A stretch of 21,793 nucleotides of DNA, taken from positions 1-21,793 of IMG/VR virus record IMGVR_UViG_3300042923_001794. One strand, 5' to 3'. The stretch comes from a virus. The notes under the pieces are model-generated. The model did no database searches. It was not told the origin of the DNA and was given only the letters and a program-made list of their open reading frames with translations. This document shows, one piece after another, positions 4,488-20,494 of this stretch (the stretch's first letter is position 1; the number at the start of each line of letters is the position of its first letter). The translations under genes were made by a program, and so were the position numbers.

Positions 4488-6097
4488 TTAAATTAATCCA
4501 TAAGCTTGTAATACATCGATAAGTGACCTAAGCTTTGTTACAGTCTGCTCCAAAGTTGATCCAGTTGCTAAGTCCGCAATTGCAGTTTTTGTTACTGGCG
4601 TAGCACCAAAGAGCCCTAAAGTACCACCACTTTTGTGAAATATATTTTTAATATGCAGGTCTGTCCAAGGATAACTGCTATTACCTAAATCAAAAGGATA
4701 TGATGTACTACTTGAACTTGGTACAAGCTCCCTTGATGAATTTAATGTTATTGTAAATGATGAGTCTGAATATAATGTGTTAATCAAGTTTCCGTTTTGG
4801 TAAATATTTTTAAAGTAACCGTTTGTCCATGGATATGAGCTACTACCAATTGAGAATGGATACGAGCTACTATTTGCATTTGGGACAAAAGCCCTTGATG
4901 AATCTAACGTTGCATAGTAAGCCGTTGTAGCGTACAAAGCACTTATATCACTTGCAGCTAAAAATGTCTTTTTCGTTCCCCCTACATATATTTCATCAAT
5001 GTATAGAGTATCAATATAGCCCTTATCCCATGTATTATTGCTGTTTCCTATGCTGAATGAATAATCACCTGGGAGCAATTCTTTTGATGTAGTTAATCTA
5101 ACTCTCGGTTGTATTGGGCTACCGGCTGCATACAACGAATCTACAAGTGTGGGTTTAAATTCATAACTACCAATATAAAGCTTATCGACCCTTGCTTCAT
5201 TAATGTAAGCATTCTTTTTATCGGACGAATTACCAATTTGAGCATAAACATAACCGGTTGTCAGACTGTTAAATTTAAGGGTAGATGATATTTCTTTTGA
5301 TTGTTGACCCTGTTGGTATATTGTCCTACCTGCAGTAATAGCACCGCTGGTAATGTCAATATACTCATACCAAACACCATAAGTATTGCCATCCCACGCC
5401 GAAGAGCTAAATTGCCCGCCTTCAATAGTTGAACCCTTAATAACAGAGCCCTCAACTAAACCGCTGAATTTAGCATTTACTGCCTCAATGCTACCATCCA
5501 AGTTGATTTTAAAGTTATTATTGGCAGTTATTACGCCTTCCAACGTAATTTTATTAGCTGATATTTTTACCTCTTCAGGACTTAAGTTAATGGCAGCAAT
5601 AACCTGATTAGAACTAACCTTAAGCGTAATGTTACCTGCCAAAATATCTATCTGTCCAATCAAGATGTTTTCTTGACCTGTAGCCCTGCTCACTTCAGCT
5701 GTAATAGCATTGGCATTTTGTGTGATAGATGCCTTGGCAGTGACTAAATCAGCTGCTACCTCATTAGCTTTAGTATCATCTGTATACTTAACTGCCTTTT
5801 CCCAGTCACCGGCCACATAACTACCGGTTGCCCTCGCTGTTTTACATTTGTATAGCTCGCCATTCTGCCCTTGTGTCCATAAGTCTCCGGCATCATAAGG
5901 GGGGACGGGTTGAGCAATAAACACCCTACGCTTACTATCTGCGGTGTCCTGGGCTTTTTGTGCATCGGCCAGAGCCTTAGTGATATCGGTATCAGTTATC
6001 TTAACCCATGAATATACTCCGCCAGCTAATTGCCACCGATATGCATACCCGTTTGATGTATTGTAGAATAAGTCGCCAAGATGAATATTTTTTTTTC
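4488..6097 (-). CDS. Tail fibre portion of the hub/fibre protein, reached by a -1 shift
   Basis: This open frame (about 536 codons after the A-run) continues the tail hub protein encoded just upstream. It contains the phage tail motif PYDAGDLWTQG with the following CKTAR and DWEKAVKYTDD (about 70-112), a coiled/beta linker (about 115-235) and three degenerate repeats near 339-375, 402-437 and 456-491. Each repeat carries a Leu/Ser-rich start, a (F)SIGNS-like turn, a Trp and a Tyr/Phe-Ile-N-Ile end. The last 40 residues (LFGATPVTKTAIADLATG ... VLQAYGLI) are a widespread Firmicutes phage fibre C-terminus. There is no internal Met anywhere, and the only possible local start (TTG at 6110) has no Shine-Dalgarno sequence. 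It is therefore best read as the downstream part of one larger protein of about 1,040 aa. Confidence 0.75.
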
Positions 6098-7621
6098 TGT
6101 AGTATCCCAACCCGTTGCAGGAGCGTTTGAGTTTGTAGGCTCATAATTATAAAACCAAGTTGTAATATTACCATCAATCTGGTTCTGCAGGTCATTCAAG
6201 CTTCCAGCTACTGTGTCCGCATACGTTGATAATTCATTCTTTGTAGCATAGGTTTGAGATGTTTCTTGCTTAATTTCATCAGCTGTAAGAGTTATCTTAC
6301 TATCTAGTTGTCCTTCTGCAGTTGATGCTCTGGATGCTTCTGCTGATATAGCAATTGCAGTCTGATCAAAACGCGTCTGAGTATTCTGTGCCAGGTCTGA
6401 TACTTCCGTCTGTATTCCTTCGACATCTTTTTTTATCTTCGTTGCTTTGCCCTGAAGCTGAATAACCTCATTGTTAACACCGTGGTTTTGTTCCCTTTCC
6501 TCCGATCCATCAGCTGAGTACTCGTCCTGAAGGACCTGTATTCCGGAAAGAGTGCGTTTAAATACATAACCTGTAACCGGATCCTCAGTCTTGAATTTAA
6601 TTGTGTCTCCTACTTCGATATAAGGCAGACCAATATTTTTACTTTGATAAGGCCGGTACGGTCTCCTGTTAATATTAGAGAAAGCATTCCATGCTATTGC
6701 TTCCAGCTCTGTGGCTGATTTACCGAAAACAAGGAAATTACCCTCAATAACATATGCATTCGTACCGGTTCCGACTATTGCTCCAATATCATGTTCTTCC
6801 GAACGGATCTGAAGCTTATCAATACCCTTTACGGTATACTCTTCAAAAGTTACTGGGTGATACATACCTTCATCAAGCTCAGCAGCATGGGAACCATCCT
6901 GGAAGAATGATGTATCTGTATCTACAACCGGGTTAAGATCCTCTGCAGGATACAAATTAATTGTTGGATACAAACCATATGCCGGCTCGAGGATGATATG
7001 AACGAACTTGCCCAGTCTGTTTATATGACCGAAACAGCCGTTTATTTCCTCACAGGCTTCCAATACCTTTCTACCACTTAATTGTGTGGGCTCTATGGTC
7101 TTCTGGACAAGCATGGAGTCGTTTGGAAGGGACCGCAGCTCCTCCACAATCCCCAGGTATGAAAGCAGACTTGCCCGGAATGCAGCAAGCGTCATCGGAA
7201 AAGATCTGGTATTATACCATGAAGATACATCATCATCTGCTTTCTTTAGTTTATCGTAAGCAATAACATCCTTGAATATGAGATTGTCCTGTTTCTTGGC
7301 TGAATCAACCTTGTATTTGCCAAGTGGGACCGTATAGCCGCTGATCAGCTGGTTAATAGTAAACTCTTGTCCCTTTAGCTCTTCCGGAACATTAGCCAGG
7401 GTGAATTTTATCTGTGCTGCTTCACATGCACCAAACCGAATATCATGATCCGAAAACAAACTTTCATCCAGTTCAAAACTATCATCTACAAAGCGGTCGG
7501 TATTTACGGTTAAATTTAATGCAGGGACATTTAACTGCAAATCCTTCCGAACGTTCTTTGATACCTTAGGGACTGTATCATTCTTATATATTGTTTTAAG
7601 AGCTTCTGCAATATCTAACAT
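6026..7621 (-). CDS. Tail hub (Tal-like) protein, zero-frame product
   Basis: Protein of 531 aa from the ATG at 7621, chosen over a GTG one codon upstream because GAGGGGG lies 7 nt before it. The N-terminal ~370 residues have the character of a siphovirus tail-associated hub protein: a Dit-docking-type beta region, IAYDKLKKADDD and VGDTIKFKTEDPVTGYVFKR segments. Residues about 385-500 are a helical coiled-coil linker. In the zero frame the protein ends 20 codons after an A9 run with an unrelated-looking tail (IFILATYSTIHQ...). A -1 shift at that run instead joins TEKK to NIHLGDLFYN and continues for about 530 residues. Its start overlaps the Dit-like stop (TGATG). The short form could be a real second product, or the break could be a mutation or sequencing error. 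Confidence 0.8.
   Translation of the reverse strand: MLDIAEALKTIYKNDTVPKVSKNVRKDLQLNVPALNLTVNTDRFVDDSFELDESLFSDHDIRFGACEAAQIKFTLANVPEELKGQEFTINQLISGYTVPLGKYKVDSAKKQDNLIFKDVIAYDKLKKADDDVSSWYNTRSFPMTLAAFRASLLSYLGIVEELRSLPNDSMLVQKTIEPTQLSGRKVLEACEEINGCFGHINRLGKFVHIILEPAYGLYPTINLYPAEDLNPVVDTDTSFFQDGSHAAELDEGMYHPVTFEEYTVKGIDKLQIRSEEHDIGAIVGTGTNAYVIEGNFLVFGKSATELEAIAWNAFSNINRRPYRPYQSKNIGLPYIEVGDTIKFKTEDPVTGYVFKRTLSGIQVLQDEYSADGSEEREQNHGVNNEVIQLQGKATKIKKDVEGIQTEVSDLAQNTQTRFDQTAIAISAEASRASTAEGQLDSKITLTADEIKQETSQTYATKNELSTYADTVAGSLNDLQNQIDGNITTWFYNYEPTNSNAPATGWDTTEKKIFILATYSTIHQTGMHIGGN
6088..6096 (-). other. A9 homopolymer: probable -1 frameshift or transcription slippage site
   Basis: On the minus strand the sequence is ACA GAA AAA AAA ATA TTC. 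It holds a slippery heptamer A-AAA-AAA in the correct zero-frame phase. A -1 slip (or one extra A added by RNA polymerase) gives Glu-Lys-Lys-Asn-Ile-His, which continues into a 530-codon frame. I see no obvious upstream Shine-Dalgarno-like stimulator. Genome error or natural indel at the run remains possible. Confidence 0.7.
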
Positions 7622-14974: not shown

Positions 14975-15526
14975 TTATTTTTCCGGAGGCAAGCCCATAA
15001 TCGCTCTCATGGATGCCATACTGGTATCACCTGCAGGAGGATTGTTTCCAGTGGGCTTTACTCCTTTGTTAATAGGTTCATCCGACCCGAATAAGTAATC
15101 GTTCTCGGTTTTAACTGCTTCGAGGGCTTTCTTAATATCCTCAGTCTGGTTCTTACTACCCTTAAGAGCTTCGATATCCAGTAAAGCCTTTACCGTTTTA
15201 CTGTTCTTTGCGCCGGTAGCCGTAATTGTGCTGTCGAGAAGGGAATTAAAATCCCTGTCAGCAAGATCTTTCTGATACTGATCGTCTTTATCCTTAAGAG
15301 CTTTATTGAGTTTATCAATTTCACCTTTAAGGTTGTTAACGTCAACACCTTCGAAGCCTTTTAAAGTCTCTTGAGCTGTCTCAAGCTGTCCCTTGTAGTT
15401 ATCTCTTTCGAGTTCAACCTTAGCAAGTTTATCTTGCTCTTTTGCGATATCCTTGCCATTAAGCTTCTGAATCTCTGCAATTTGCTCCTCAGTCAATCCG
15501 AGTGCTGTTAAATCTTCTTTCTTCAT
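14975..15526 (-). CDS. Capsid scaffolding protein (Gp20 family)
   Basis: A 183-aa, highly charged, largely coiled-coil protein directly before the major capsid gene. It begins MKKEDLTALGLTEEQIAEIQKLNGKDIAKEQDK, a hallmark of the phage minor structural protein Gp20 family that serves as scaffold in A118/SPP1-like phages. Coiled coil runs from about residue 30 to 100, followed by a helix (NSKTVKALLDIEALKGS) and a Pro/Gly linker (KPTGNNPPAGDTS) leading to a short C-terminal helix (SMRAIMGLPPEK) that probably contacts the coat protein. An AAGGAG site lies 8 nt before the ATG. The gene begins a new transcriptional segment after two terminators. Confidence 0.88.
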   Translation of the reverse strand: MKKEDLTALGLTEEQIAEIQKLNGKDIAKEQDKLAKVELERDNYKGQLETAQETLKGFEGVDVNNLKGEIDKLNKALKDKDDQYQKDLADRDFNSLLDSTITATGAKNSKTVKALLDIEALKGSKNQTEDIKKALEAVKTENDYLFGSDEPINKGVKPTGNNPPAGDTSMASMRAIMGLPPEK

Positions 15527-15617: not shown

Positions 15618-15644
15618 AAAAAGCACCTGAATAATCAGATGCTT
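15618..15644 (-). terminator. Second tandem terminator after the candidate immunity gene
   Basis: Minus-strand RNA forms AAGCAUCUGA-UUAU-UCAGGUGCUU, a 10-bp stem with one U-G pair, followed by TTT (five T in a row including the stem end). The U-G pair would be a C-A mismatch in plus-strand RNA, so the structure is directional. Confidence 0.75.
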
Positions 15645-15656
15645 AATTTTAGATAT

Positions 15657-15689
15657 AAAAATACCACCTACCGTAATGATAGATGGCAT
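15657..15689 (-). terminator. First tandem terminator, directly at the immunity gene stop
   Basis: Minus-strand RNA forms AUGCCAUCUA ... UAGGUGGUAU, a 10-bp stem with two G-U pairs and a 9-nt loop, followed by TTTT. Its first base is the last base of the TAA stop of the 99-aa gene. Both wobbles become mismatches on the plus strand. The stem is less GC-rich than the 2153-2174 terminator, so leaky termination is likely. Confidence 0.72.
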
Positions 15690-15988
15690 TAATATGTTAT
15701 AAATTCAACTGAAATCATTCCGTTAGTATCTTTCCATTCCGCCCAACATAGATTGTCAAGCCATACATCTGAAACATTATCCACTAACCAGTTGGGTTCG
15801 AATTCATTCGCTTTATCTAAAGGAATTAACCATCCCCTTAAATCCTCACCTTCCATATCTTCGAGGAAGAACTCTCTGCCTTCACCACAATCACAAAAGA
15901 AAACTTTCCCCTGATTCTTTGCAGTACTCTGAATCAAATTCCAGAATTTATTGAATTTTTGGTTTTCTTGCGTCCTTAACCCTTGCAT
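15689..15988 (-). CDS. Small acidic protein, candidate immunity protein for the minor capsid BECR domain
   Basis: A 99-aa protein starting at ATG 15988; a TTG two codons upstream is possible, but GGAGGAG sits 6 nt before the ATG. The reading starts inside the 3' end of the minor capsid gene (41-nt overlap), so the two are made from one transcript. It is strongly acidic (18 Asp/Glu against 9 Lys/Arg) and rich in Trp (six), with FFCDCGEGREFFLEDMEGED and DKANEFEPNWLVDNVSDVWL segments. No signal or transmembrane segment is seen. An acidic cytosolic partner right behind a toxin-like C-terminal domain is the arrangement of polymorphic toxin/immunity pairs. This is inference: I recognise no named family, and a structural or morphogenetic role is the main alternative. 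Two terminators follow immediately. Confidence 0.7.
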   Translation of the reverse strand: MQGLRTQENQKFNKFWNLIQSTAKNQGKVFFCDCGEGREFFLEDMEGEDLRGWLIPLDKANEFEPNWLVDNVSDVWLDNLCWAEWKDTNGMISVEFITY

Positions 15989-17438
15989 TTTCAACTCCTC
16001 CCTTCAATACGGTTACAAATTTACCGTTATTCACAACCACTACATCCGATCCTTTAATATAAAAATCTGATATCCCTGGTTGACCTCTCCAATCTCCAGG
16101 TACTATTTCATCCCGATTATCAATTATGTCATTGATTATGTTGCCCAGCTTCATTCTATCATCCTGATTACTTGGGTCAAGTCCATAATCTTTTGCATGC
16201 CTTTTAACCTTATTACCAAATTGCTTATCTGTCATTATTATATCGCTTTTCTTAGATTTTGCAACCAGTTTTCCTCCGGGATCTACTCTTCCGAGACCAT
16301 CCATATAGATGCGTTCTTTTTGCTGAGGCAATTTCATCTTCTCGGAGAATAACTTATATTTTCTCATGGTTTCACGATAATCAATCTGTGCCGTCAGAAT
16401 ATCATCCGCAGCTCCATCACCTGATTTCAGTAGTTTGATCCTCTGCCTTTGAGCTCTCATGAGTGTTTCAAGCTGCCTCTGACGCTGTGTAGCCTCATAA
16501 GTGGTGTATTCCTTACCATTGAACACTTTAGGTTTGTTCTCAGCAGCATTCATATTATCGAGTTCTTCATCACTCCACTGCCGTTCAGACACTCCTTCAA
16601 TAAACGGGTAATAGCTATGATAGCAATTCCACCCCATGAGCCCTGGGCCGGTACCCAAACCGCATACTTCAACAAGCTGCTGTTTAGTATAAACCCTGCC
16701 CTGCCACTCCTGATGAGAAGGCCTTGCAGAAGCATGCCAGGACACTTCGAATTTGTCAGTCCCAAGCTGATCTGCGTTACTCTCATTAATATGACTTGTC
16801 ACTTGGGTAATTCCAGTCATTAATGCTCTGCGAGCTGCAACATCGATCCGGTTGCTCCATCCATTTGCATAATCTACCCTTCTGAGTCCGCTTTTGGTCA
16901 TTTCCTTAACAACCTTTTTGAGTGTGCTGTTATAATCAAACGTGCCGGTAGTCACTCCCATGACAGCAGTATCGAGTACCTGCTGTAAGTATTGAGACAT
17001 AGGAGCAAGCACCTGCTTACCACCTAAATCAATGGTAAATCCAATCGTTTGAGTGATATTAACCATCTCTGATTTAGTCTGTGTTATAACAGCTTGTATC
17101 AACTGCTGGAGCTCCTGATTTTCTTTGAAAGGTACGAATTCCTTACCAACTGCTTCGTACAGCTTCTTATCACGAGCATATCCGGACTGGATTACATTGC
17201 TATATAACCTATCCATCTCATCGTTGGTTAACTTCAATGTCTGCTGTATCTGTTGCTGTATGTAATCTGAGCTTTTACCAGTCTGTACCATGCGGTATAT
17301 CTGCCAGTCAGCCGATCGGGTAATCTCATCATTAATGCGAATACGACGAATGATATCCTCCATGATACGGATTTCTAATTCAGCCATGCGCCGCTCAATC
17401 TCGATCGGCATTTGCTCAAGTTCTGAAGGAGTAAACAT
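15948..17438 (-). CDS. Minor capsid protein with C-terminal BECR-type nuclease-like domain
   Basis: A 496-aa head protein. Residues about 1-375 match the Phage_min_cap2 pattern of A118-like phages: helical N-terminus, SNRIDVAARRALMTGITQVTSHI (195-217), the HASARPSHQEWQGRVY motif (235-250) and GPGLMGWNCYHSYYPFIEGV (264-283). Residues about 398-492 are a separate small domain with KVKRHAKDYGL (His414), Asp/Arg-rich DPSNQDDRMKLGNIINDI, DWRGQ (449-453), a DFYIKGSDVVVVN strand pair and KFVTVLKGG (Thr476). That pattern is how Barnase-EndoU-Colicin E5/D-RelE-like (BECR) RNase toxins fused to phage head proteins look. It lies where such domains usually attach, after a basic linker. It may enter the new host with the DNA. 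The active-site assignment is an inference. The ATG has GGAGG upstream. Confidence 0.85.
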   Translation of the reverse strand: MFTPSELEQMPIEIERRMAELEIRIMEDIIRRIRINDEITRSADWQIYRMVQTGKSSDYIQQQIQQTLKLTNDEMDRLYSNVIQSGYARDKKLYEAVGKEFVPFKENQELQQLIQAVITQTKSEMVNITQTIGFTIDLGGKQVLAPMSQYLQQVLDTAVMGVTTGTFDYNSTLKKVVKEMTKSGLRRVDYANGWSNRIDVAARRALMTGITQVTSHINESNADQLGTDKFEVSWHASARPSHQEWQGRVYTKQQLVEVCGLGTGPGLMGWNCYHSYYPFIEGVSERQWSDEELDNMNAAENKPKVFNGKEYTTYEATQRQRQLETLMRAQRQRIKLLKSGDGAADDILTAQIDYRETMRKYKLFSEKMKLPQQKERIYMDGLGRVDPGGKLVAKSKKSDIIMTDKQFGNKVKRHAKDYGLDPSNQDDRMKLGNIINDIIDNRDEIVPGDWRGQPGISDFYIKGSDVVVVNNGKFVTVLKGGVENARVKDARKPKIQ

Positions 17439-17449
17439 TTTCCCACCTC

Positions 17450-18802
17450 CTACGGAATTATCTCAGCCGGCTCATTAATCATCTTGGCAGCTGTCTTTTC
17501 ATCCTCATGGTACCATTTCATACGGTATTCAAGAAGTGTCATAGCACCGATTGCAACATCAGCTTTGTCCTGGGCTCTCTCTGTTTCCTCATCGACCAGG
17601 ATACTGTCCTTGAAATCACAGATATATTCATAACCGGTTGTGGCCAGGCTGTTATAGAAAGCGAGAGCATCAACCAAGTCACTCAAGCAATCCTTGAGGT
17701 TGCTTTGAATAGCAGTAACCATATTGTACTTACGCTTCTTTGCTGTTTTAACCTCTGTAGCTGTTTTTTCTATCATAGCCGGGTTAGAAATATCACCGTA
17801 GGACAAGCCGACACCAAACTCAATGTCACGCTTGTACTCTTCCAGTCCGTTAATAAATGACTGCTCCCTGAACTCAGGAGAAAATGTATCAAACAGTTCC
17901 TTCCCGTCACCGGGAGATACATCAACAGCTCTGTATAATCTCTTATTAAGCCTTGGTAACTTTCTCTCACCAGTAACTTTATCCGTTTTTAAAGCTGCAG
18001 GATCTACATGAACAGCTCTTTCACCAGATTCAAACTCCCAATCAAGGCGCCCAAATTGTATATCCGCCTTTTTAATTGTATTTATTTTCGGGTCATAGAT
18101 TGATACACCATTAAAGGATCCGTCAATCATATTCTTAATCGGATTCCGATAATATCCAAAGTCCGGTTTAGGGAAAGGAAACCATATATCCGGTACCAGA
18201 TCGGCCCAATCATCTACATCGGTGAGAGGAACTTCTCGACCTAACTCATTTACATTCTTGGCATGAAATGCCTTGTTGGTGATAGTCAAACCCTTTTTAT
18301 CAACTGCATGATATTCAAACCGGCGATAGATATCATCCTCTTTGATTTTCTTAGTCTCGATGAATACAACCTTCATCAGACGTCCACGGCTATCAAACTC
18401 TATGGGGATAAAGTTATCCTGGGTAACGTATTCAACTTTGTCTTCTCCGAGTGGCTTAATGATGAACGCACCAAGGGCAAGACCACTCTGTAGGTTCTCA
18501 TTCAAATCCTGGATAGCTTTCTGATAAATTTTATCAAGCTTATCAACCGTAACCTTCGAAGTCATTTCATTAAGAGTTACGTTAGCAAACTCCCTAACGA
18601 TGCCTTGCTCAAGCCGAAGAGAGTATACAGCGTCATTATCTATCCATTCAGCTTCGCCTTTATACATTTTGGACCAAATTTCAATTTTATCAACCATCGC
18701 ATTTGATATGGCTGCATCTACACCAATGGCTTGCTTTACGTTTTTAACTGGAAACACTTTTCTGATCAACTCCCTTACGAATTTTACTATGCTTTCAAAC
18801 AA
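17450..18802 (-). CDS. Portal protein (SPP1/A118 type)
   Basis: A 450-aa protein that forms the dodecameric DNA channel at one capsid vertex. The N-terminus (MFESIVKFVRELIRKVFP, then AISNAMVDKIEIWSKMYKGEAEW) and internal stretches such as EQGIVREFANVTLNEMTSKVTVD, VEYVTQDNFIPIEFDSRGRL and SFNGVSIYDPKINTIKKADIQFGRLDWEFESGE are typical of A118-type portals. The C-terminal half has GVGLSYGDISNPAMIEKTATEVKTAKKRKYNMV, a region that lies near the channel in this family. It starts at TTG behind AGGTGAT; an upstream in-frame TGA rules out an earlier start. It lies between the terminase and minor capsid genes, with 15 nt to the former. Confidence 0.9.
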   Translation of the reverse strand: MFESIVKFVRELIRKVFPVKNVKQAIGVDAAISNAMVDKIEIWSKMYKGEAEWIDNDAVYSLRLEQGIVREFANVTLNEMTSKVTVDKLDKIYQKAIQDLNENLQSGLALGAFIIKPLGEDKVEYVTQDNFIPIEFDSRGRLMKVVFIETKKIKEDDIYRRFEYHAVDKKGLTITNKAFHAKNVNELGREVPLTDVDDWADLVPDIWFPFPKPDFGYYRNPIKNMIDGSFNGVSIYDPKINTIKKADIQFGRLDWEFESGERAVHVDPAALKTDKVTGERKLPRLNKRLYRAVDVSPGDGKELFDTFSPEFREQSFINGLEEYKRDIEFGVGLSYGDISNPAMIEKTATEVKTAKKRKYNMVTAIQSNLKDCLSDLVDALAFYNSLATTGYEYICDFKDSILVDEETERAQDKADVAIGAMTLLEYRMKWYHEDEKTAAKMINEPAEIIP

Positions 18803-18817
18803 TACTCATCACCTGCC

Positions 18818-20494
18818 TTACTGCCCCCTTCTCTTCCAGATCGGGTTCATTGCGTATCTGACCATATCTATAGCATGATTGTCTTTATCCGGATAACCAC
18901 TGATAACATTACCTTCCTTATCCCTCTCATATTCGTAATTGAGGAATTCATCAGCTGTATGAGGGCATCTCCGATTATCTATGATAATCTCTCGTAGTGA
19001 TTGCAGCCACTTCATTGAGTAATCAACCGATCCAGGACCCTTCTCAGCACCTCTGGCTAATAATCCATATGAGCGGTAATCACCGATTGATTTTTCCTCT
19101 GCACTATCACAGGTAATCAGATCGTTCTCGGTTATGCCCATCTCCCGGAGTTTATCAGCAGTCTGTTTATTAGACTGTTTATTACACCGGTGTTCCATGA
19201 AGATAAATAACCGCATTCTAGCAGCATCATAATGCATTCTGCCGAAGTGATAAGGATCCGGATACCAGCCCCAGTCGATACCATTATATAAACGATCAAA
19301 TTGCTGTAGCTCTTTATCTGTAATTGCCCTGATAGTAACATTGTCAAATACATTACCCCCGGTACCATTAGCAACGCCCATGTACTCATTTTCATAAGCT
19401 GTAGGATTTACATCTTTCAGAAACTCAGCTTCATCCAGGAACGGTTTACCAAGCCACTGAGGAGGAACATCTTTATAAGTGCTGTGAGTTACCAACCGGG
19501 TTGCCTTAGGTATCTTAATATATTTATTCGCCCAGTTATTAACCGATTTCGGAGGGTTGAATGACTTAAATATATACGCCAGCTCACCACCACGGATTAC
19601 AGACTGCTCAATCTTACGAACAGCCTCTTCTCCGGTAAACTGATCAAGCTCTTCCAGCCATAGGATAGCAATATAACCAAATGGTACCTTTATTGATTTA
19701 ACCTTTCCTGGATCATCAGCTCCACGGAAGTAAATCTTCTGGCCGGTGCTCCTTCTGGTAATCTCCAGAGGGCTTACTGTACAGTGAAACTCATCATCAA
19801 GCCCAAGCGCCGATATTGCCCATAATATCTGTTGATATACAGAAGTCCGGAGTGTATCAGCAACCTGCCTCATTACTACCGCATGAGTGTCTTCATGCTT
19901 CATGATCAGGTCGATCACTTCGAGAGAAACAAAAGAAGACTTGGTTGAACCACGTCCTCCCGGGAATACATATTCATTATATAGCCGCTGCTCTATGTCA
20001 TGAACAACTTTGATAAATGCGGGTGCAATCATGGAAGCTGGGATTCCGGTATATTTTGTTCCTTCCTCCGGATTGTCCGGTTCTAGCTTCTTAGTTTCAG
20101 CCTTCAGCTTCTCAATACGCTGCTTCTGTTCTATTATGTCAAGTTCATCCTTTGTCTTAACCGTTTCAAATATTCTGTATCGTTTTCCGATAAGTTCAGC
20201 CGCTTTTGTTCTATCCTGTAAAGATGCATCCATATCAAAAGCATCCTTCTGCTCGCCCCTCATTACAGAAGTGAGGTACTCCATTACTTCTTTAGCGTCC
20301 GCAATGCGCTTAGATTCGATATCTGCTAGGCGCTTATCTATATATTGGCGAAGGTAAGGTTTTGACAAGTTCTCTGCGCCGATTTGTTTTGCTGTTTTCT
20401 TGCTATATCCAGCTTTGATAGCCGCCTCAGTAGCGTTTCCAGACTTTACATAATTATCACAAAATGCTTTCTGCTTAGGTGATAAATCATCCAT
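18818..20494 (-). CDS. Fused terminase: small-subunit domain plus PBSX-type large subunit
   Basis: A 558-aa DNA packaging motor in which two usually separate subunits are one polypeptide. Residues about 1-140 are a Terminase_2 small-subunit-like region: LSPKQKAFCDNYVKSGNATEAAIKAGYSKKTA (DNA-binding helix-turn-helix) followed by oligomerisation helices and a charged coiled coil. From about 150 the large subunit follows: Walker A GGRGSTKS (179-186), Walker B AILWLEE (276-282, with Glu281 and Glu282), the coupling-region-like SFNPPKSVNNWANKY, and a nuclease with Asp407 (GIDWGW), Asp463 (CDSAEE) and Asp537 or Asp543 (DKDNHAID). No separate TerS gene is present upstream. Its ATG overlaps the preceding stop by 8 nt. 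Headful or cohesive-end packaging cannot be told from this sequence. Confidence 0.92.
   Translation of the reverse strand: MDDLSPKQKAFCDNYVKSGNATEAAIKAGYSKKTAKQIGAENLSKPYLRQYIDKRLADIESKRIADAKEVMEYLTSVMRGEQKDAFDMDASLQDRTKAAELIGKRYRIFETVKTKDELDIIEQKQRIEKLKAETKKLEPDNPEEGTKYTGIPASMIAPAFIKVVHDIEQRLYNEYVFPGGRGSTKSSFVSLEVIDLIMKHEDTHAVVMRQVADTLRTSVYQQILWAISALGLDDEFHCTVSPLEITRRSTGQKIYFRGADDPGKVKSIKVPFGYIAILWLEELDQFTGEEAVRKIEQSVIRGGELAYIFKSFNPPKSVNNWANKYIKIPKATRLVTHSTYKDVPPQWLGKPFLDEAEFLKDVNPTAYENEYMGVANGTGGNVFDNVTIRAITDKELQQFDRLYNGIDWGWYPDPYHFGRMHYDAARMRLFIFMEHRCNKQSNKQTADKLREMGITENDLITCDSAEEKSIGDYRSYGLLARGAEKGPGSVDYSMKWLQSLREIIIDNRRCPHTADEFLNYEYERDKEGNVISGYPDKDNHAIDMVRYAMNPIWKRRGQ

Follow-up and report, generated by a model that had tools for sequence, protein, structure and literature searches.

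A prophage minor capsid protein with a predicted colicin D-type tRNase domain, a linked putative immunity gene and candidate promoters within the toxin segment

Polymorphic toxins on the MuF head proteins of temperate phages are a published class, in which MuF2 corresponds to PF06152 (Jamet 2017, PMC5576092). The Tox-ColD domain is known from polymorphic toxin systems, with MuF among its listed delivery systems and ImmD and Imm64 as its listed antidotes (Zhang 2012, PMC3482391). Head proteins also carry domains of the same BECR superfold in the PBECR-MuF fusions (Iyer 2017, PMC5512222), and the MuF toxins Bxa and Apk2 combine a head fusion with adjacent immunity genes, for which neutralisation has been shown experimentally (Alexei 2024, PMC11699363). 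Fusions of BECR nucleases to phage head proteins, called an established class in a first-pass annotation of the present locus, are indeed already known (PMC5576092, PMC3482391). The toxin and antidote pair described here is a member of the published MuF class.

As in the systems of Jamet 2017 (PMC5576092), a MuF2 head protein has a C-terminal toxin and toxin-less short relatives, a small ORF lies behind the toxin, and the setting is a Firmicutes prophage. Promoters and terminators are unmentioned in the main text of that paper, whereas the cassette described here is seemingly framed by a promoter inside the toxin segment and a conserved terminator. The toxin is like Tox-ColD (PMC3482391) in being a predicted colicin D-type BECR tRNase with the motifs Hxx[ED] and [TS]xxK; however, its antidote belongs to no Pfam or NCBIfam family. 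The toxin fold and the His/Asp/Ser-Thr site are shared with colicin D, as seen in the colicin D/ImmD entries 1v74 and 5znm, but colicin D is carried by a receptor-binding bacteriocin rather than a phage head protein. In contrast to ImmD, the antidote has an alpha/beta model with no PDB match among the 50 matches listed. The PBECR-MuF fusions differ in that PBECR2 similarity is sub-threshold here, colicin D is the better fit and an immunity gene is linked (PMC5512222). Bxa and Apk2 are an ADP-ribosyltransferase or alarmone synthetase (PMC11699363), whereas a tRNase is predicted here. A literature search found no description of the antidote family or of the promoter-toxin-antidote-terminator layout.

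The window, which is the whole stretch of DNA analysed, comprises 21,793 nt (positions 1 to 21,793 of IMG/VR record IMGVR_UViG_3300042923_001794), and all of the features described are on its minus strand. The 558 aa terminase ORF (18818–20494) has small (PF03592) and large (PF04466, PF17288) domains fused in one frame. Between this and the minor capsid gene is an ORF in the portal position (17450–18802) that has no Pfam match. The minor capsid protein (MuF2, Phage_min_cap2; 15948–17438) is 496 aa long and is followed by the putative immunity gene (15689–15988) and two hairpins. A GP20-b RNA (RF03003; 15549–15613), a cis-regulatory motif matched above its gathering score at 46.7 bits (E=4e-9), lies between the cassette terminators and the gene for the capsid scaffolding protein (14975–15526; PF06810, 2e-35) and is the downstream limit of the cassette. 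The order ends with the scaffold protein and then further structural genes. Because the contig runs on into bacterial genes beyond the window, the phage is taken to be an integrated prophage; the integrase half is outside the contig. Among named relatives, those nearest to the toxin come from Clostridia MAGs.

The 496 aa protein has an N-terminal head domain of the MuF superfamily, matched by Phage_min_cap2 (PF06152) over residues 3–364 (E=5e-107), with a second match (6e-106) to phrog_581, 'minor head protein'. The head domain ends at approximately residue 365–385, and comparison with relatives assigns residues 1–385 to it (16284–17438). A distinct C-terminal domain had been noted previously at about residues 395–496; this is confirmed, with the separate part being residues 386–496 (15951–16283), assigned as linker and colicin D-like tRNase domain by profile search and Foldseek. 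This part has a pI of 9.5 and is 36% GC, versus 44% in the head part. Of 23 head-domain relatives from IMG/VR, many copies that are 66–76% identical terminate at residue 386, and others have unrelated extensions that are each accompanied by a small ORF of their own. The C-terminal toxin region is therefore variable among related head proteins, and both the colicin D-like toxin and the 99 aa antidote family are absent from all 23.

Members of the colicin D tRNase family cleave tRNA-Arg within its anticodon loop. When an alignment of 13 toxin relatives was used as a profile against the PDB (hmmsearch), the four best matches were all colicin D, with E-values of 8e-8 to 1e-6. The AlphaFold2 model of the toxin (pLDDT 81.6) has a helix-helix-four strands arrangement, and the first five Foldseek matches to it are again all colicin D (probability 0.98–1.00), at TM-scores of about 0.53–0.55 by query and E-values of only 0.016–0.14. 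His414 (codon 16199–16197), Asp417 and Thr476 (codon 16013–16011) align with colicin D H611, D614 and S677, residues that are essential in colicin D (PMC3482391). Both motifs are retained, as H414 with D417 and as T476-V-L-K479; by sequence alignment there is no counterpart of colicin D W679 and K607. Pfam matches of the toxin to Colicin_D and PBECR2 are both sub-threshold, and PBECR2 (PF18810) was dropped at 14.2 bits against a cut-off of 27.1. The profile and fold searches bear out the BECR fold proposed in the first-pass annotation and narrow it to a predicted domain of specifically the colicin D type.

The small ORF begins at the ATG at 15988, with a strong Shine-Dalgarno sequence, GGGAGGAG (15995–16002), just 5' of this and inside the toxin coding sequence, and the two genes overlap by 41 nt. 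At 99 aa, with a pI of 4.3 and six Trp, its product is the acidic, Trp-rich protein starting within the toxin 3' end that had been recognised from the sequence at the outset. The model of the protein is confident (pLDDT 91), and no family was matched in Pfam and NCBIfam searches. There is no sequence match to ImmD or Imm64 in these databases and no fold match to either among the 50 PDB matches listed. The antidote appears not to be ImmD, since its confident model has no PDB match among those listed.

The association of the toxin with the small ORF exceeds what would be expected by chance. When 295 genomes of the order were searched separately with each, both searches found the same three places, at which toxin and small ORF are side by side; at two further places the small ORF is present without the toxin. 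In the loci from scans with the toxin alignment (L021–L034), the antidote family is directly 3' of the toxin in 8 out of 9 Firmicute or phage loci, the exception being L029, where the toxin is truncated. The pair is carried on MuF2 proteins (L023, L024), on MuF1 proteins (L032, L034 and, weakly, L033) and as standalone copies (L021, L022), and in prophage L067 it is on a portal-adjacent MuF1-like protein. The toxin domain is common to another polymorphic toxin family, ending the actinobacterial RHS-repeat proteins of L026–L028 and L030, where the antidote family is absent. Direct searches of the INPHARED phages and single-sequence scans of IMG/VR, with either toxin or small ORF, gave no matches; the alignment query and the genome searches did match.

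These loci and the 23 head relatives show exchange of cassettes: the small gene co-varies with the C-terminal ~110 residues while the head region is conserved, in line with the earlier expectation. The small gene was looked for beside toxin-less head proteins, where its occurrence would have counted against the pairing, and was found in 0 of the 23. Co-occurrence in independent searches and in 8 of the 9 loci supports the linked immunity gene proposed at first pass, and with it the identification of the 99 aa protein as the probable cognate immunity protein of the colicin D-like toxin.

Some of the copies in chromosomes are orphaned or damaged. The antidote is intact beside a toxin with a decayed 3' end in L014, and toxin and antidote are fused into a single ORF in L061. 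In L061 and L066 (8880–9551), the continuous toxin-antidote frame adjoins another small-gene cassette that has a similar linker (KNARIEK). The orphan antidote of L015 adjoins remnants of another phage cassette type, these being chromosomal fragments (5652–7001) of the cassette seen in L048 and L049. A truncated antidote amid repeated small paralogous genes in L064 resembles a polyimmunity locus, and the actinobacterial L031 has a short ORF that ends in the colicin D-like toxin domain, without the antidote family.

Sigma70-like consensus sites (at least 10 out of 12) were sought in the last ~340 nt of the extended genes, using a 345-nt cut. In the discovery set, 20 promoter-like sites were found in the toxin extensions versus 3.8 expected, with 3 versus 3.5 on the antisense strand and 0 versus 1 in the short head genes. 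Perfect TTGACA/TATAAT pairs are present in L024 and L056. An independent set of fresh PF06152 loci from genomes gave 16 sites in the extensions versus 3.4 expected, two of them perfect, with 4 versus 4.7 in the head body and 1 versus 3.0 antisense. Against a null of shuffled synonymous codons the excess is 21 versus 7.6 (discovery) and 15 versus 6.8 (independent), and the cluster-level codon null gave 2/200 and 0/200 shuffles, respectively, these statistics being limited by the shared ancestry of the cassettes and by the use of consensus-based scans. The head body of the discovery set is also above the codon null (22 versus 13), to which linker sites lying slightly beyond the 345-nt cut may have contributed. 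In several cassettes, no promoter or terminator could be detected. The toxin segments are thus enriched in candidate sigma70-like sites that are aimed at the antidote gene, on the sense strand only.

Two such sites were found in the window. Candidate promoter 1 (TTGCAA-16-TATAAT; 16237–16264) is encoded by the linker VAKSKKSDII and has a predicted transcript start at around 16229. This is immediately beyond the final in-frame start codon ahead of His414, and a transcript from here therefore cannot encode intact toxin. Candidate promoter 2 (TTGACC-16-TAGAAT; 16153–16180), at 10 of 12, has TG ahead of its -10 hexamer and is 3' of the His414 codon.

Two terminator-like hairpins follow the small gene, in agreement with the two terminators noted at first pass. 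The first, located at 15660–15690 and annotated as the cassette hairpin over 15648–15690, overlaps the immunity stop codon, and the second (15621–15644; AAGCAT...GGTGCTT type) resembles hairpins behind the immunity genes of L034, L050, L155 and L157. The presence of both hairpin types in tandem in the window is perhaps a trace of successive cassette swaps. The cassette hairpin recurs with 89–92% identity over 38–49 nt in three MuF2 relatives with unrelated toxins, with shorter matches of 27–59 nt (80–96%) in three more, and is missing from 13 MuF2 relatives without an extension. An IMG/VR pattern scan and a covariance model gathered 20 loci in which the conserved hairpin begins 1–4 nt after the small-ORF stop, covering ten sequence clusters of toxins, eleven of antidotes and two or more head families; conservation of the hairpin sequence in these is partly by construction of the pattern, but its position after the ORF and its T-rich tail are not. 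MuF1 relatives that had not been selected by the hairpin have it in 18 out of 25 cases with an extension and in 0 out of 2 without. A terminator of any type was found behind the small ORF in 12 out of 25 cases of the independent MuF2 set, where 0.2 would be expected, and behind 0 out of 11 short head genes.

Specificity of the hairpin for the colicin D-like toxin was rejected, as it is missing from the other phages and prophages that have the toxin and instead accompanies unrelated toxins. Hairpin matches outside head-toxin loci (L075, L076, L082, L085, L095, L097; for L085 the upstream context is lacking) were excluded, weak genome matches (E about 1e-4) were not counted as evidence, and Rfam gave no match above threshold for the cassette hairpin. 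Related toxin extensions are found with the hairpin on different head families in L050 and L079, and likewise in L088 and L116; the L116 extension is Ntox50.

It is likely that the locus encodes a prophage MuF2 polymorphic toxin of the colicin D type, with its immunity gene and a proposed lysogenic immunity transcript. The C-terminal RNase of the head protein is predicted to cut the anticodon loop of tRNA. The product of the overlapping gene would neutralise it as the immunity protein, probably by direct binding, since the toxin is basic and the antidote acidic. During lytic growth, expression of the late operon would yield both, and the toxin would be brought into the virion by the head protein and then, along with the DNA, into the next cell. 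In a lysogen, where the late promoter would be silent, the promoters in the toxin segment are proposed to drive an immunity-only transcript that would end at the hairpins ahead of the capsid genes. The lysogen would be shielded from toxin arriving with sister phages, and non-immune cells would be harmed.

The nature of the C-terminal domain could be read in two other ways. It is unlikely to be a PBECR-type effector on phage or host mRNA, or a mere RNA binder aiding infection, with the small protein an ordinary head gene. PBECR-MuF fusions have been described (PMC5512222) and there are weak PBECR2 matches (E=0.053 for the window toxin and 0.0026 for L024), but colicin D matches far better, and the small gene accompanies the toxin on different head families and in standalone copies and does not occur next to heads that lack the toxin. 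Decayed toxin copies in the relatives L013, L025 and L014 raise the further idea of an inactive remnant. This is very improbable for the window copy, which is full length and in frame, retains H, D, T and the TxxK motif, has a good predicted fold and is followed by an intact immunity gene.

A different doubt concerns expression. It is possible, although we do not favour it, that toxin and immunity are real and that immunity comes from the late operon only, with promoter-like sites and hairpins that have no lysogenic role, the hairpins for example only tuning the ratios of late mRNAs before the scaffold gene. Immunity would already be provided by late transcription when toxin is made, promoters found by scanning are uncertain, and the adjoining GP20-b RNA suggests that the scaffold gene is controlled separately. 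However, the promoter enrichment recurs in the independent set, persists against a null that preserves codons and is limited to the sense strand; the terminators are behind immunity ORFs and not behind short head genes; and a transcript from promoter 1 would start too late to include an in-frame start codon ahead of His414. On balance, we lean towards a general arrangement in which head toxin cassettes would be in-frame transcription units, comprising a linker promoter past the last start before the catalytic residue, toxin, immunity gene and terminator, with near-identical hairpins common to unrelated modules and different head families. From such a unit a silent prophage would make antidote and no active toxin.

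Shielding of the lysogen requires immunity to be expressed at a time when the late genes are silent, and internal promoters together with cassette-end terminators would explain production of the antidote under these conditions. At the DNA level, the hairpin conserved in these cassettes and the promoter in the linker may also serve as markers for finding new toxin-immunity pairs, and several of the pairs seen here are without a Pfam match.
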